Both the position numbers and the translations under genes were made by a program. Positions 4,331-63,105 of a stretch of 64,000 nucleotides of DNA are shown in pieces. The stretch lies in NCBI RefSeq assembly GCF_030291075.1, contig NZ_CP127407.1, positions 990,001 to 1,054,000 of the forward strand, in the 5' to 3' direction. The notes under the pieces were generated by a model. It saw only the letters and a program-made list of their open reading frames with translations, ran no database searches and was not told the DNA's origin. Origin of the DNA: Stenotrophomonas sp. 57. Its GTDB lineage: Bacteria > Pseudomonadota > Gammaproteobacteria > Xanthomonadales > Xanthomonadaceae. The number at the start of each line of letters is the position of its first letter. Position 1 is the first letter of the stretch.

Positions 4331-5593
4331 ATGAAACGTCGCGTCGTCGTAACCGGCCTGGGTATCGTCTCGCCGTTGGGCAATGATCTGGCCAGCAGCT
4401 GGGAAGGCATCACCCACGGCCGTTCGGGCATCGGTCCGCTGACCAACGTTGCTGATGCCTACGTGGATCGGTTCACCACCAAGATTGCAGGTGAGGTCAA
4501 GGGATTCGACATCACCGCCGACAACGAACTGTTCGGCAAGTATCGGGTCAGCGGCAAGGATGCCAAGAAGATGGACCCGTTCATCCATTACGGCCTCGGT
4601 GCCTCGTTCATGGCCCTGCACGACTCGGGCCTGGAGATCACCGACGCCAATGCCGAGCGCATCGGTGCCATCGTCGGCGCCGGCATCGGCGGCCTGCTCG
4701 GCATCGAAGAGCAGACCATCGAGTTCCACGAGGGCAAGAAGATCTCGCCCTTCTACGTGCCCAAGACCATCATCAACATGCTGCCGGGCCAGCTGAGCAT
4801 CATCACCGGCCTGAAGGGCCCGTCGTTCTCGGCGGTGTCGGCGTGCGCGACCTCGAACCACTCGATCGGCACCGCAATGCGCATGATCCAGTACGGCGAT
4901 GCCGACGTGATGGTGGTTGGTGGTGCAGAGCGTGGCTCGTCGCCGACCGCGCTGGGCGGCTTCTGCGCGATGAAGGCCATGAGCACCCGCAACGACGCCC
5001 CGGAACAGGCCTCGCGCCCGTGGGACAAGGACCGTGACGGCTTCGTGCTGGGCGACGGCGCCGGCATCCTGATCCTGGAGGAGTACGAGCACGCCAAGGC
5101 ACGCGGCGCGAAGATCTACTGCGAACTGGCGGGCTTCGGTGCCAGCTCCGACGCGTACCACATGACCGCCCCGAGCGAGAACGGCGAAGGTGCCGCGCGC
5201 TGCATGGTCATGGCCATGAAGGATGCCGGCGTGACCCCCGAACAGGTGGGTTACCTCAACGCGCACGGCACCTCCACGCCGCTGGGCGACCTGGGCGAGA
5301 CCATGGCGATGAAGACCGCCTTCGGCGACCACGCCTACAGGATGATGGTCAGCTCCACGAAGTCGATGACCGGCCACCTGCTGGGTGCCGCGGGCGGCGT
5401 GGAAGCGATCTTCTCGGTGATGGCGCTGCAGGACAACATCATTCCGCCGACCATCAACCTGGAACAGCCGGGCGAAGGCTGCGACCTGGACTACGTGCCC
5501 AACGAAGCACGCCAAGCCAAGGTGGACGTGGTGATGTCCAATGGCTTCGGCTTCGGCGGCACCAACGGCACGCTGATCTTCAAGCGCGTCTGA
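4331..5593 (+). CDS. fabF: Beta-ketoacyl-ACP synthase II
   Basis: Condensing enzyme for chain elongation. The 420-residue length is normal. The thiolase-fold Cys-His-His set is visible: C172 in [10 protein letters not shown]312 in [11 protein letters not shown], and K344/H349 in [11 protein letters not shown]. The start has a GGAG site 10 nt upstream. It is the last clear member of the fab cluster. After it come a repeat and then pabB, at the position occupied by pabC in enteric bacteria. Confidence 0.96.
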
Positions 5594-38719: not shown

Positions 38720-39385
38720 ATGCGCCCGCCCATGCTGTTCTGCATGAACAGCACCCGTCTCCTGCTAGGCCGTCATTCCAGTATCGGCCAGAGCTACATC
38801 CTCACCACGAACGTGCATGACCGGGCGGCTCTGTTCGCCAATGACGCCGTTGCGGTTACCGCCATCCAGCAGTTCCAGCGTCTGGATCTGGAAGGTCTGA
38901 CCCATTCGATCGCCTACGTGGTCATGCCGGATCACATCCACTGGTTGATGCAGCTGCGCGCTGCATCGCTCGACGTTGTCATGAAGCGCTTCACGTCGCG
39001 TACGGCGGTGTACACAAACAGGGTACTGGGCAGGGTGGGGCGCTTCTGGCAGTCCTGCTATCACGATCACGCGATCCGCTCTGATGAATCGCTGTTCCGG
39101 CACGCAATGTATGTGATGGCGAATCCGATCAGGGCGGGGCTGGCAACGCAGCTTGGCGAGTACCCGCATGCGTGGTGTGAGTGGGAACTCGAGGGTTCCT
39201 GTGCCAAGGCGGAGTTCATGGGGCGGACAGATAGTGCCAACCAAGGTTGGCACCCACCGAAAGCAGGTTCCAACCTTAGTGGGTACCTACCCAAACCAGG
39301 CTCCAACCTTGGTGGGCAACCACCGGACGTTGTGGTTCAACGCTTCTGCTTGAACAGCCAATCCCACACCGCCGGGTCCGCGTAG
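38720..39385 (+). CDS. REP-associated tyrosine transposase (RAYT)
   Basis: 221 residues from ATG 38720 (38732 and 38744 are alternatives). A Y1 HUH nuclease domain: H72 and H74 in VMPDHIHWLM hold the metal, and Y114 in FWQSCYHDHAIRSDE is the likely nucleophile. It is a single-copy domesticated transposase thought to spread or process REP sequences. REPs of GTGGGTGCC type lie on both sides. The last 45 or so residues (NQGWHPPKAG...GGQPP) are translated REPs, not protein-like sequence, and the gene ends inside the 3' end of the opposing esterase gene. Confidence 0.88.
   Translation: MRPPMLFCMNSTRLLLGRHSSIGQSYILTTNVHDRAALFANDAVAVTAIQQFQRLDLEGLTHSIAYVVMPDHIHWLMQLRAASLDVVMKRFTSRTAVYTNRVLGRVGRFWQSCYHDHAIRSDESLFRHAMYVMANPIRAGLATQLGEYPHAWCEWELEGSCAKAEFMGRTDSANQGWHPPKAGSNLSGYLPKPGSNLGGQPPDVVVQRFCLNSQSHTAGSA
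39234..39324. repeat. Three REPs in a row inside the RAYT 3' end
   Basis: Unit 1 is a full stem GTGCCAACC/GGTTGGCAC (39234-39253) with CCACC. Units 2 (about 39265-39291) and 3 (about 39299-39324) are decayed direct repeats (TCCAACCTTRGTGGG). They are inverted relative to the upstream REP. Confidence 0.8.
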
Positions 39386-43829: not shown

Positions 43830-44099
43830 TCAGCTGTCCTCGTCGAAACGGCGTTCGAACAGGCCGACCACCGCCTCCATCGCGGCAGCTTCGTCCTCGC
43901 CGTTGATGCGCACGGTGACCGGAGTGCCCTGGCCGGCGGCCAGCAGCATCACGCCCATGATGCTCTTGGCGTTGATCTCACGGCCCTTGGCGGCCATGGT
44001 CACGTTGCAGCGGAACGGCGCCAGGGTCTGCACCAGTTTGGCGGTGGCCCGGGCATGCAGGCCCAGGCGGTTGCTCACGGTGAGTTCTCGTTCAAGCAT
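43830..44099 (-). CDS. ptsH: Phosphocarrier protein HPr
   Basis: 89 residues. H15 (RLGLHARA) is the PEP-phosphate site and S46 (AKSIMGVMLLA) is the HprK target. Both sites are intact, so it can be regulated by the kinase encoded 1.7 kb upstream. It overlaps the EIIA-Man gene by 8 nt and ends 2 nt before EI. Confidence 0.95.
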   Translation of the reverse strand: MLERELTVSNRLGLHARATAKLVQTLAPFRCNVTMAAKGREINAKSIMGVMLLAAGQGTPVTVRINGEDEAAAMEAVVGLFERRFDEDS

Positions 44100-44484
44100 C
44101 GTCGACTATCGCTCCATTACGGGTACCCGCCGCGGCTGTGGCAGGCAGTTGATCCAGTCCCTGTTCCGGATAATTCATCACCCGCAGCAACATCGGCAGG
44201 CTCAGCGCCGACACCCGGCGAACCGGGGTCCCCAGCCGGGCCAGCTGCCCGGCGAGGTTGGCGGGGCTGGCGCCGTACAGGTCGGTCAGGATCAGCACAC
44301 CTTCACCGCCATCGACCCGCCGCAGCGCGGCCGAGGCAAGCGGGAGAAGAGCGTCCAGGTCTGCGTCGAACGGTACTTCGAAAGCTTCGGTTTTCAGCGG
44401 CAGATGCCGCAGGAGCCGGGTCGCCACGTCAAGCAGGGCGGTCCCGACCCCGGGATGTGTTACGAGGAGAATGCCACAGGTCAT
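44092..44484 (-). CDS. PTS EIIA component, mannose type
   Basis: 130 residues. GILLVTHPGVG with phospho-site H10 and ILTDLYGASPANLA match the EIIA-Man fold. No EIIB, C or D lies nearby, so it is an orphan EIIA accepting phosphate from HPr. Such orphans are usual next to HprK and HPr in proteobacteria without mannose transport, with a regulatory role. Confidence 0.9.
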   Translation of the reverse strand: MTCGILLVTHPGVGTALLDVATRLLRHLPLKTEAFEVPFDADLDALLPLASAALRRVDGGEGVLILTDLYGASPANLAGQLARLGTPVRRVSALSLPMLLRVMNYPEQGLDQLPATAAAGTRNGAIVDDA

Positions 44485-44562
44485 TACTGCACGTTAACAG
44501 GTCAAGGTGAATTGGCGATAGCAGCAGGAGAGGGGCACTGTGTCCCGTATTCAGCGTTGCCA

Positions 44563-44601
44563 GGGTCAGAGCCCTTTTTCTCTGGAAAAGGGATCCGACC
44601 C
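44563..44601. repeat. Dispersed palindrome, gggtcagatccctttt class, copy 3
   Basis: Arms 44563-44578 and 44586-44601 (15 of 16 complementary) around TCTCTGG. It lies in the 437-nt spacer between rapZ and EIIA-Man. Confidence 0.75.
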
Positions 44602-44631
44602 CATGCGTTTTTCGATGCCTGACCGGGACTC

Positions 44632-44675
44632 ATCCACGCATGGCGTGGATCTGCCGTGTCGACCAAGGTCGACAC
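44632..44675. repeat. Two palindromes (GCGTGGAT and GTGTCGACC types)
   Basis: ATCCACGC/GCGTGGAT (44632-44650) and GTGTCGACC/GGTCGACAC (44656-44675). The second equals, in inverse orientation, the one at 62864-62882 and belongs to the extended hairpin element. Confidence 0.75.
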
Positions 44676-44730
44676 CCGCCAACAGCAGCACACAATAGCG
44701 TCCCGACAGATCGCAGGAATCTGTCGAAGG

Positions 44731-44830
44731 CGGGGTGGGTCAGCAAGCGGGGGGGGGGGAGCCGCATGGATGCGGCGACCGAGCTTACAGGGACGTACTT
44801 GCAGCGTCCCCCGCTTGCTGACGCACCCCG
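44731..44830. repeat. Long covarying hairpin, copy B
   Basis: 23-nt arms at 44731-44753 and 44808-44830 pair at 22 of 23 positions. The 54-nt loop, read on the minus strand, matches copy A except for a few bases (ACGCTGCAAGTACGTCC, then GTAAGCTCGGTCGCCGCATC). The stem core is CAGCAAGC/GCTTGCTG here but CCGGTTGC/GCAACCGG in copy A. Similarity to A extends outside the stem to 44656-44866. An 11-G run at 44749-44759 is present. The rest of the rapZ-EIIA spacer holds only other palindromes. Confidence 0.85.
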
Positions 44831-44864
44831 TCACCCGGGGAATGCCGGCTTTTGACGTTGCTTC

Positions 44865-44911
44865 AGTCGAGCATGGCTCGACTCTACAGCGGGTGCCGGG
44901 CGCAGCCCGGC
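44865..44911. repeat. SMAG element plus GCCGGGC hairpin near rapZ
   Basis: AGTCGAGC/GCTCGACT (44865-44883) followed by CTAC, and GCCGGGC/GCCCGGC (44895-44911). Just after the rapZ stop on the minus strand, so they may terminate it. Confidence 0.75.
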
Positions 44912-44921
44912 CGACCCCCTC

Positions 44922-45806
44922 TCAATCCTGTTCGCGGTGGTACGTGGCCACGTCTTCCCAGCCCATCTCGCGGGCATGCCGAGCCAGGCGCTCGGCCAGG
45001 AACACCGAGCGGTGCTTGCCGCCGGTGCAGCCGAACGCCACGGTCACGTAGCTGCGGGTGCCATCGCCCAGCTTCGGCAGCCAGGTATCAAGGAAGTCCA
45101 TCAGCTGGGCCAGGTAGCGCTGCACATCCGGCTGCGCTTCCAGGTAATCGCGCACGCCGGGTTCGCGCCCGCTCAGCGCCCGCAGGTCCGGATCCCAGTG
45201 CGGATTGGGCAGCACCCGCGCGTCGAACACGAAGTCCGCTTCGGCCGGCACGCCGCGCTTGTAGGCGAACGATTCGAACAGCAGCGACAGGCCAGTGGCA
45301 TGGTCCATTGCGAACTCGGTGATGATCCGCCGCCGCAGCTGGTGCACGTTGAGGCTGCTGGTGTCGATCACCGCATCGGCCTCGCGGCGCAGCGGTGCGG
45401 TCAACTCGCGTTCGCGGGCGATGGCTTCGGGCAGGGACAGCCCCAGCTGGCTCAGCGGATGGCGACGGCGGGTGTCGGCGTAGCGCTTGAGCAGCGTCTC
45501 GTCGCTGGCTTCGAAGAACAGCACCTTCACGTCCACGCCGGCGTCGGCGGCCAGCTGCCGCCATTCCCCCAGCTGGCTCAGGTCGGCCTGGCCGCGCACA
45601 TCGATGCCTACCGCCAACCGGCGCGGCGCGGCGCCGCCGTGATGGGCCAGCAGGCTGCGCACGAAGTCCGGAAGCAGGTTGATCGGCAGATTGTCCGAGC
45701 AGTAGTAGTCCTGGTCCTCGAAGGTCTTCAGGGCGACGGATTTACCCGAGCCGGACAGGCCGCTGACGATCATCAGGGTCGGGGCGGAGGGGGTGACGGT
45801 GCTCAT
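44922..45806 (-). CDS. rapZ: RNase adapter protein RapZ
   Basis: 294 residues. P-loop SGLSGSGKS (15-23, K22) in an N-terminal NTPase domain, [22 protein letters not shown], and a C-terminal domain with [18 protein letters not shown]. In enterics it binds sRNA and guides RNase E to GlmZ, linking cell-wall sugar supply to decay. It lies in the rpoN-ptsN cluster next to hprK. Confidence 0.94.
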
Positions 45807-62708: not shown

Positions 62709-62810
62709 GGCGGGGTGGGTCCGGTTGCGGGGGACGCTGCAAGTACGTCCATGTAAGCTCGGTCGCCGCATCCATGCGGCTCACGCCCCCGCAACCGGAC
62801 CCACCCCGCC
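62709..62810. repeat. Long covarying hairpin, copy A
   Basis: Perfect 25-nt arms (62709-62733, 62786-62810) enclose a 52-nt loop with its own inner hairpin GCCGCATCCATGCGGC. Flanks shared with copy B run from about 62667 to 62882 and include the GTGTCGACC palindrome. Confidence 0.9.
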
Positions 62811-62863
62811 TTCGACAGGTTCCCGCGATCTGCCGGGACTGCGTACTGCACTGCTGTTGGTGG

Positions 62864-62923
62864 GTGTCGACCTTGGTCGACAAGTGTCTTGCTTGTGGTG
62901 GGTGACGACCGTTGGTCGTCACC
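62864..62923. repeat. Two GTGGGTG-type REPs
   Basis: TGGGTGTCGACC/GGTCGACA (stem 62865-62882) and GGTGACGACC/GGTCGTCACC (62901-62923). Same head (TGGTGGGTG) with covaried stem bases. Confidence 0.8.
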
Positions 62924-63001
62924 GGAGCAAGCGCAGCGAAGCGACCCGCTTCTGCTTTTCTTTCTTTCTTCCGTGCCTGGACGCCCACGGAAACTGTCAG
63001 A

Positions 63002-63105
63002 GGCCGGGCGGGGTGGGTTCGCGGGGGTGTCCGCGGCATGGATGCCGCGGCCAAGCCCCCAGGGACGGGTTCACGGCGTCCCCCGCGGGCCCACCCCGCC
63101 CGGCC
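63002..63105. repeat. Long covarying hairpin, copy C
   Basis: 26-nt arms (63002-63027, 63080-63105), 24 of 26 paired, around a 52-nt loop in the orientation of copy B. The loop keeps GCATGGATGC, CAGGGACG and GCGTCCCC, but bases between differ and the inner hairpin is longer (CCGCGGCATGGATGCCGCGG). The 522-nt spacer 62625-63146 holds only copies A and C and REPs. Confidence 0.88.

Follow-up and report, generated by a model that had tools for sequence, protein, structure and literature searches.

A high-copy repeat family of Stenotrophomonas as a probable divergent branch of the TwoAYGGAY RNA family with two candidate CsrA/RsmA-binding loops

Three long hairpins with differing stems and similar loops lie in a 64,000-nt stretch of the Stenotrophomonas sp. 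57 genome (G000, one contig of 4.44 Mb), which was analyzed as a whole and is referred to here as the window (G000:C1:990001-1054000). This raises the question of what keeps such a fold intact while its sequence changes, and whether the hairpin acts as an RNA or as a piece of DNA. An initial annotation had suggested a structured RNA, a transcription-termination module or a non-autonomous element moved by a trans-acting transposase, and knew of no formal description. The elements and their neighborhood are given below in window coordinates, except for the matches to our covariance model R1, which are in contig coordinates; the strand is that of the most likely RNA.

Element A: 62709..62810, minus strand; perfect 25-bp stem (62709-62733 / 62786-62810) with a 52-nt core.
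Element A, R1 covariance-model match: G000:C1:1052727-1052792, minus strand; 94.2 bits.
Element A, first GGA hexaloop with its closing pair, CATGGATG: 62769..62776, minus strand; on a covarying stem.
Element A, second GGA hexaloop with its closing pair, CATGGACG: 62746..62753, minus strand; on a covarying stem.
A/C spacer: 62811..63001, no strand; two REP-type palindromes, GGTGGGTGTCGACC at 62859 and GGTGGGTGACGACC at 62897.
Element C: 63002..63105, plus strand; 26-bp stem (63002-63027 / 63080-63105) with a 52-nt core.
Element C, R1 covariance-model match: 1053021-1053086, plus strand.
Element C, first GGA hexaloop, CATGGATG: 63037..63044, plus strand.
Element C, second GGA hexaloop, CAGGGACG: 63060..63067, plus strand.
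Element B, a single copy: 44729..44832, plus strand; 25-nt arms (44729-44753 / 44808-44832) with a 54-nt core.
Element B, R1 covariance-model match: 1034749-1034814, plus strand.
Element B, first GGA hexaloop, CATGGATG: 44765..44772, plus strand.
Element B, second GGA hexaloop, CAGGGACG: 44788..44795, plus strand.
rapZ (Pfam), with its 3' end beyond element B: 44922-45806, minus strand.

Elements A and C form one divergent pair, and the REP types of their spacer were assigned by comparing them by eye with a table in PMC2817692. Element B was observed between rapZ and a PTS-like gene cluster that share a common strand (window 43830-45806). Both A and C lie exactly where the initial annotation had placed them; its hairpin B is also present but extends two bases further at each end, and the stems, described as 23-26 bp, proved to be 25-26 bp, with cores of 52, 54 and 52 nt in A, B and C. 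The arms of A match throughout, and B and C each have two positions without an exact complement, which in C are two G-U pairs on the plus strand. The stem-core changes named previously are present, and both arms vary together among A, B and C. What had been described as the loop contains two more small hairpins, likewise covarying. All six strands of A, B and C, at the coordinates first proposed, folded better than 200 of 200 dinucleotide shuffles, with z-scores from -6.8 to -9.3.

To follow the family through the genome, element A was compared with it by BLAST (40 of 105 candidate places scored), and an alignment (A2) was made of the inner 66 nt, comprising 7 bp of stem plus the core, of 26 indel-free copies, 24 of them distinct; L006, L016 and L029 (indels) and L023 and L030 (split copies) were excluded. 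The covariance model built from A2, R1, gave at least 132 matches at E<=1 in G000 (150 of 5729 first-look candidates scored), four of them with E >=0.01. These matches fall at 93 places, and none is located within the genes that a simple codon-usage caller predicted. The copies of the window are thus not one-off. The following counts on stem, strand and loops refer to 102 matches, namely those whose 66-nt core is ungapped; the other 30 are insertions, IS scars and fragments.

The search with a covariance model that the initial annotation had proposed also yielded matches across genus, family and class genomes. R1 matches were observed in 63 of 81 genus genomes and in 72 of 247 family genomes (16 of 54 genera). 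A selection of 26 genomes, each with matches, gave as many as 112 in one of them (G097), a count possibly inflated because its tandem cores at 70 nt (L240) and 87 nt (L241) may be assembly duplicates; tandem cores 71 nt apart that join at an n (L242) were discarded as an assembly artefact. A pattern scan of named genomes, which required both loop motifs and in which near relatives of the window may be missing, gave seven records, each also matched by R1: Xanthomonas pisi, a Methylicorpusculum MAG, Methylocucumis oryzae, a Granulosicoccaceae MAG and three other gammaproteobacterial MAGs. These records inform on range and stems only, not on loop conservation. Together with 30 other loci they make up alignment A3 (54 copies, 37 loci), which was fitted to R1 and therefore leans toward the structure. 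A model built from A3, R2, matched 72 of 369 sampled class genomes, representing 63 of 271 genera. The counts per genome are capped, with up to 64, 21 and 14 candidates scored in the genus, family and class surveys, respectively.

The fold is borne out by covariation. On the strand that reads CATGGATG, each copy is laid out as a closing stem followed by two hairpins, P2 and P3, each with a hexaloop, and P3 carries a 5-nt bulge on its 3' side. Over the 18 written pairs of A2, 99.8% of cells are paired and 10 of the 18 pairs have changed on both sides, so that stems do covary once more copies (26) are considered; none of 500 shuffles reached the real values, and slid versions were 40-61% paired. 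In addition, RNAalifold on A2 found extra pairs below P2, one of them covarying (C-G 16 / U-A 10). Across genera, pairing extends to 97.9% of the A3 cells, with double changes at 14 of 18 pairs, and RNAalifold on A3 gave 22 pairs, 18 with double changes. Among the 102 copies, the closing stem is paired up to pair 25 and ends sharply at pair 26, and all 25 pairs are Watson-Crick or G-U in 66. By sequence, the outer 18 pairs sort into 13 clusters, the two large ones having 51 and 39 copies, and pairing of the outer stem amounts to 96% with a copy's own arms vs 48% with an arm from another cluster. The stem sequence therefore appears loosely constrained, but its pairing does not.

The mispairs of the stem indicate which strand is read. 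As a G-U pair in one RNA strand is an unpaired A-C in the opposite one, the two kinds should be unequal where one strand is selected as RNA; on the CATGGATG strand of the 102 copies there are 70 G-U, 14 A-C and 61 other mispairs. Counted per copy, with the copies being mutually related, G-U is in excess in 45, A-C in 6 and 51 are ties, and counted by distinct sequence context the numbers are 54 vs 14. Because G-U exceeds A-C by 70 to 14, the selected molecule is most likely the RNA of the CATGGATG strand, which in the window is minus for A and plus for B and C. Covariation within the genome and across genera and strand-specific G-U pairs thus bear out the suggestion of a structured RNA under selection, and we consider it very likely that the element is a structured RNA of this strand.

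Thermodynamics on its own does not support the written fold, whereas covariation does. A comparison of energies only, between the written structure and the minimum, placed the consensus fold of A, B and C 5-10 kcal/mol above the single-sequence minimum, and at that minimum part of the second GGA is engaged in pairing. Similarly, in single-sequence folds GGA is open (P(unpaired) >0.5) in 95 of 102 first loops and 59 of 102 second loops; for the 49 A3 rows that have both motifs the corresponding numbers are 45 and 26, and for the 20 rows of a further set of relatives, A4, they are 19 and 11.

Both hexaloops present the same short motif. The first reads ATGGAT in 93 of 102 copies; the second begins with A in 102 of 102, has any base at its second position (T45 G30 A19 C8) and contains GGA in 100 of 102. 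The motif CANGGANG, including its closing C-G pair, is present at both sites in 93 copies, at one site in 9 and at neither in none, although this conservation is somewhat overstated because the models that collected the copies reward the loop letters. Strict AYGGAY is found in 96 of 102 first loops and, because of the free second position, in 50 of 102 second loops. Among relatives, loop 1 carries CANGGANG in 54 and loop 2 in 49 of the 54 A3 copies, seven rows of which come from the pattern that required both motifs, and both loops carry it in 20 of 20 A4 copies, which are best-scoring matches. The two GGAs of one copy are 23 nt apart, GGA to GGA, and 81 of 102 copies have a further GGA upstream, at most 24 nt from the stem. 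CANGGANG corresponds to the Rsm-binding motif, for which penta- and hexaloops are described as the commoner form (PMC6849547).

Insertion modules occur in both loops. In 8 of 93 stretches (L069, L074, L083, L084, L087, L106, L134 and L143), hexaloop 1 has given way to a module of ~82 nt, which as judged by eye forms two long hairpins, whose loops contain AGGA in 7 of 8 and 8 of 8 cases. A second module (GGTGAGGGCGCTTTGCTTGCGAAGCACTGC..., with small differences) was observed to begin within hexaloop 2 at L078, L135 and the orthologous loci L171, L177 and L179.

A comparison of insertion sites between strains, as the initial annotation had advised, was made at the A/C site, for which 30 orthologous loci were obtained from 41 genus genomes. 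As we assigned the matches, R1 found the element at the A position in 16 loci and at the C position in 12, with a constant orientation at each position; 28 copies were counted, two of the 30 matches (E 0.15 and 0.96) being excluded. Both arms adjoin the core in 24 of the 28 copies, the other four being affected by insertions or a contig end, and in 23 of these 24 the outer 18 positions are paired at >=16; the remaining one, L172, which combines the A and C sites as a hybrid, is paired at 15. Different species show several distinct stem sequences at this one site. At L174 the stem palindrome alone is left at C, and at L180 a remnant is left at A. In the more distant species (L186-L195), there was no R1 match below E 0.01 at the A/C site, and several of these loci have a short spacer. 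The orthologous loci therefore indicate that the pair was retained through speciation, that its stems compensate for changes or are exchanged, and that copies are both gained and lost.

Some elements are also interrupted by an insertion sequence, whose two orfs are of the HTH_Tnp_1 and rve kinds, always at one point (L121:1422-2569; L082/L083, L109/L110, L130/L131 and L144); it was identified with Pfam in the L121 copy, the remaining copies being equal by eye, and we take it to be IS3-like. Its ends read TGATCTGGCCCCC, and a duplication of 3 bp, which appears as GAC or, from the opposite strand, as GTC, accompanies three of the four copies read. Several elements that are 8 nt longer (L029 and L089) hold a remnant of the IS end; because of this and of the shared insertion point, the hairpin seems to be a recurrent IS target.

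The genomic arrangement of the copies is considered here together with a reading that it favors, namely that the hairpin is a BIME- or MITE-like non-autonomous DNA element, whose palindrome is needed by a transposase or a replication process and whose arms stay perfect because each can serve as template for its partner (template switching or hairpin correction). The copies are dispersed, and 39 of the 93 places have two close matches, all 39 being minus-then-plus and thus divergent; the spacing is 151-314 nt, with 21 of the 39 at 180-207 nt. As two places that appeared single (L084 and L106) hold an extra insertion-module copy on the other strand that is absent from the R1 matches, the number of pairs is at least 39, and four further minus-plus couples, in which one copy is split by the IS, are 1.44-1.55 kb apart. 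Divergent pairs also occur in other genera, and L243 is a -+-+-+ array with a 293-nt period. At L203, a gammaproteobacterial MAG, direct tandem cores ~150 nt apart on one strand were observed (167-379 and 4741-5118), unlike the divergent pairs of other loci. The pair spacers contain REPs and often also a GGGGTCAG palindrome, and this dispersal in divergent pairs resembles that of BIMEs. In many pairs (e.g., L079, L103 and L128), we also observed a recurrent spacer palindrome, GGGGTCAGATCCGTTTTCC...GGAAAACGGATCTGACCCC, which matches the GGGGWSAS motif described for TIR repeats of Y1 transposases (PMC3733652). The matchless A/C sites of L186-L195, several with short spacers, fit a DNA element as well, and so does L174, whose C site shows palindrome-type decay. 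However, a DNA process gives no reason for the 5 to 1 preference of G-U over A-C, and leaves unaccounted for both the covarying internal hairpins and the fixed A and GGA around a free N in the loops.

The dispersal, the divergent pairs and the tandem arrays thus look BIME-like, in keeping with the suggestion of a transposase-moved element, but no cognate transposase was found and the stem is too variable. With its outer stem in 13 clusters, contrary to the conserved terminal repeat of a MITE, a sequence-specific terminal repeat is disfavored. Three Y1 transposase genes were found in G000, and the element does not border any of them in the manner of the TIRs of a TIRYT-type gene; they are flanked by REPs instead, and the REPs beside Y1 genes at L031 and L033 match Stenotrophomonas sequences in PMC2817692. 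One such Y1 (IS200-like) gene, of the RAYT type, was observed in the window itself (38720-39385, plus strand), flanked by GGTGGGTGCCAACC-type REPs; it scored 22.3 as a protein (Pfam cut-off 23) and 23.9 in the genome search. A REP/SMAG or RAYT product was rejected on the ~102-nt length of the element and on the three Y1 loci, which by eye carry REPs and not the element. Overall, we consider a DNA element unlikely.

If the elements are structured RNAs, the question becomes whether they belong to a known family. At the gathering threshold, Rfam gave one tRNA and nothing else in the whole window, and no match on the tested elements. A total of 26 weak E-value matches of A and C, mostly to long-hairpin microRNA models, were judged to be chance hits of a GC-rich stem, and weak Ysr224 matches on relatives were dismissed, being below the cut-off and mostly opposite the RNA strand. 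TwoAYGGAY (RF01731, clan CL00106) had at least nine matches at E<=10 in G000 (89 of 264 first-look candidates scored), six with E <0.01 and three with E 1.6-4.5, the best reaching 40.0 bits (E 1.2e-4) vs a gathering cut-off of 43. All nine coincide with elements on the same strand, as judged by comparing coordinates by eye. A, B and C are not among the nine matches listed, A and C have no RF01731 match at E<=10, and RF01731 was not listed in an E-value scan of 18 relative loci. In 18 element-rich genomes, RF01731 matched at E<=10 in 10 and not in 8, and exceeded its cut-off in three (G500, G630 and G367); at three of the places where it did so (L270, L271 and L272), R2 also finds the core.

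Because RF01731 matches fall on elements, though the formal score test fails in G000, the elements can be regarded as a divergent branch of TwoAYGGAY, and we consider this relationship very probable. They would then be a divergent, high-copy and dispersed branch of a known RNA family. The absence of a formal description, as initially supposed, hence needs qualification: RF01731 is a relative, but it does not reach the copies of the window. In the literature searched, which covered few subscription papers, we found no description of high-copy divergent intergenic pairs. TwoAYGGAY itself is reported from human gut, gammaproteobacteria and Clostridiales (PMC2864571), and was proposed in 2014 to bind CsrA, as a prediction to be validated (PMC4333381).

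On balance we favor, with moderate confidence, the reading of the family as an amplified TwoAYGGAY branch that presents two GGA loops to CsrA/RsmA. Judged from the sequences, the binding itself is probable. The element would be transcribed as a short RNA, through read-through or inside the untranslated region of an mRNA, and its three-way junction would present two CANGGANG hexaloops above the 25-bp closing stem, such that each copy could offer two GGA loops to one CsrA/RsmA dimer. The 25-bp stem may insulate the core, and RNase III could act on it. The ~130 copies might then act as a distributed RsmA sponge and/or place the transcripts that carry them under RsmA control; that RsmA titration is a main biological effect is conceivable on sequence grounds, with somewhat less than even chances.

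The occurrence of the protein agrees with such a link in part. All 81 genus genomes carry csrA (PF02599), and in 18 of them no element was found at the threshold used. In the class sample, it was found in 67 of 72 element-bearing vs 246 of 297 other genomes (p=0.029), and, among nearly complete genomes, in 58 of 59 with the element vs 222 of 255 without (p=0.009; kinship ignored). RsmU with all its GGA motifs altered still bound RsmA (PMC7694677), and GGA content alone is therefore weak evidence in that case. The same source states that CsrB/CsrC and RsmV-RsmZ have no significant homologue in any sequenced Xanthomonas genome; the RsmZ model RF00166 gave 14 weak matches in G000, none above the cut-off.

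A structured RNA with a partner other than CsrA, for example a ligand of the three-way junction, with the GGA loops making tertiary contacts, would account for some features. Conservation also covers the bulge of P3 (UUYAC/CUUGC) and both arms of this second hairpin (AGCC...GGCGU), its junction-side nucleotides included, which CsrA binding alone would not require; predicted folds often pair the second GGA, and 5 of the 72 element-bearing class genomes show no csrA, among them one that is 98% complete (G510). However, both loops fit the Rsm motif exactly, with its N free, and csrA is slightly commoner in genomes with the element, as the above counts from nearly complete genomes show. We therefore regard a different partner as rather improbable.

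The hairpin might alternatively be a 3'-end module, with a very stable stem that blocks exonucleases or ends transcription downstream of genes. Its absence from called genes agrees with this reading, as do two biases in gene orientation: read along the RNA strand, the next gene past the element is opposed in 78 of 132 cases and same-sense in 54 (p=0.045), and 29 of the 45 single copies have a gene of their own sense before them. These biases are weak, and a 3'-end module would not conserve two CANGGANG loops. The termination module of the initial annotation, in the form of an intrinsic terminator, is rejected because T-runs are lacking: of 102 copies, none has one after the stem on the RNA strand, and 9 have one on the opposite strand. 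A 3'-end module thus seems quite improbable. Finally, a mobile core inserted into ready palindromes was considered in view of near-identical cores within unrelated stems, but the fixed stem length, the G-U bias and the conserved orthologous sites favor selection and exchange between copies.

For the CsrA/RsmA-presenting RNA, a broader proposal can be made tentatively: Stenotrophomonas and several relatives may possess a genome-wide, repeat-borne RsmA-binding network of more than 100 two-site copies, many of them in divergent pairs, with BIME-like spread and stems that drift almost freely but stay paired, replacing the sponges of the CsrB/RsmZ type that are reported to be missing from the sister genus Xanthomonas. 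If this is true, a repeat family would serve as a distributed regulator of a global RNA-binding protein. What is new here comprises hundreds of candidate TwoAYGGAY members, the Rsm-motif signature of their loops, their RNA strand and their genomic habit, and the elements are directly testable candidates for RsmA antagonism in this bacterial family.

The family shares features with several known systems. Like SMAG/Smal REPs and BIMEs of the same genus, the elements are intergenic, dispersed, palindromic and of alternating orientation, but REPs are described as being 20-40 bp long, with a GTAG or GTGG head and located by RAYT genes (PMC2613905, PMC2817692, PMC3733652), in contrast to ~102 nt with two internal hairpins. 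RsmU of Xanthomonas belongs to the same bacterial family and has three or four GGA motifs; it binds RsmA and derives from a 3' UTR, but by its description it stands apart as a single locus, reported in that source from Xanthomonas only (PMC7694677). With TwoAYGGAY, the elements have in common two hairpins with AYGGAY-type loops within a closing stem, and they differ in the free second loop position, in the 25-bp stem of nearly free sequence and in their ~130 copies per genome, many in divergent pairs. CsrB/CsrC and RsmX/Y/Z likewise have several GGA hairpin loops with an expected role in CsrA/RsmA sequestration; these RNAs concentrate many sites in one or few genes, whereas the elements described here are scattered over many copies with two sites each.
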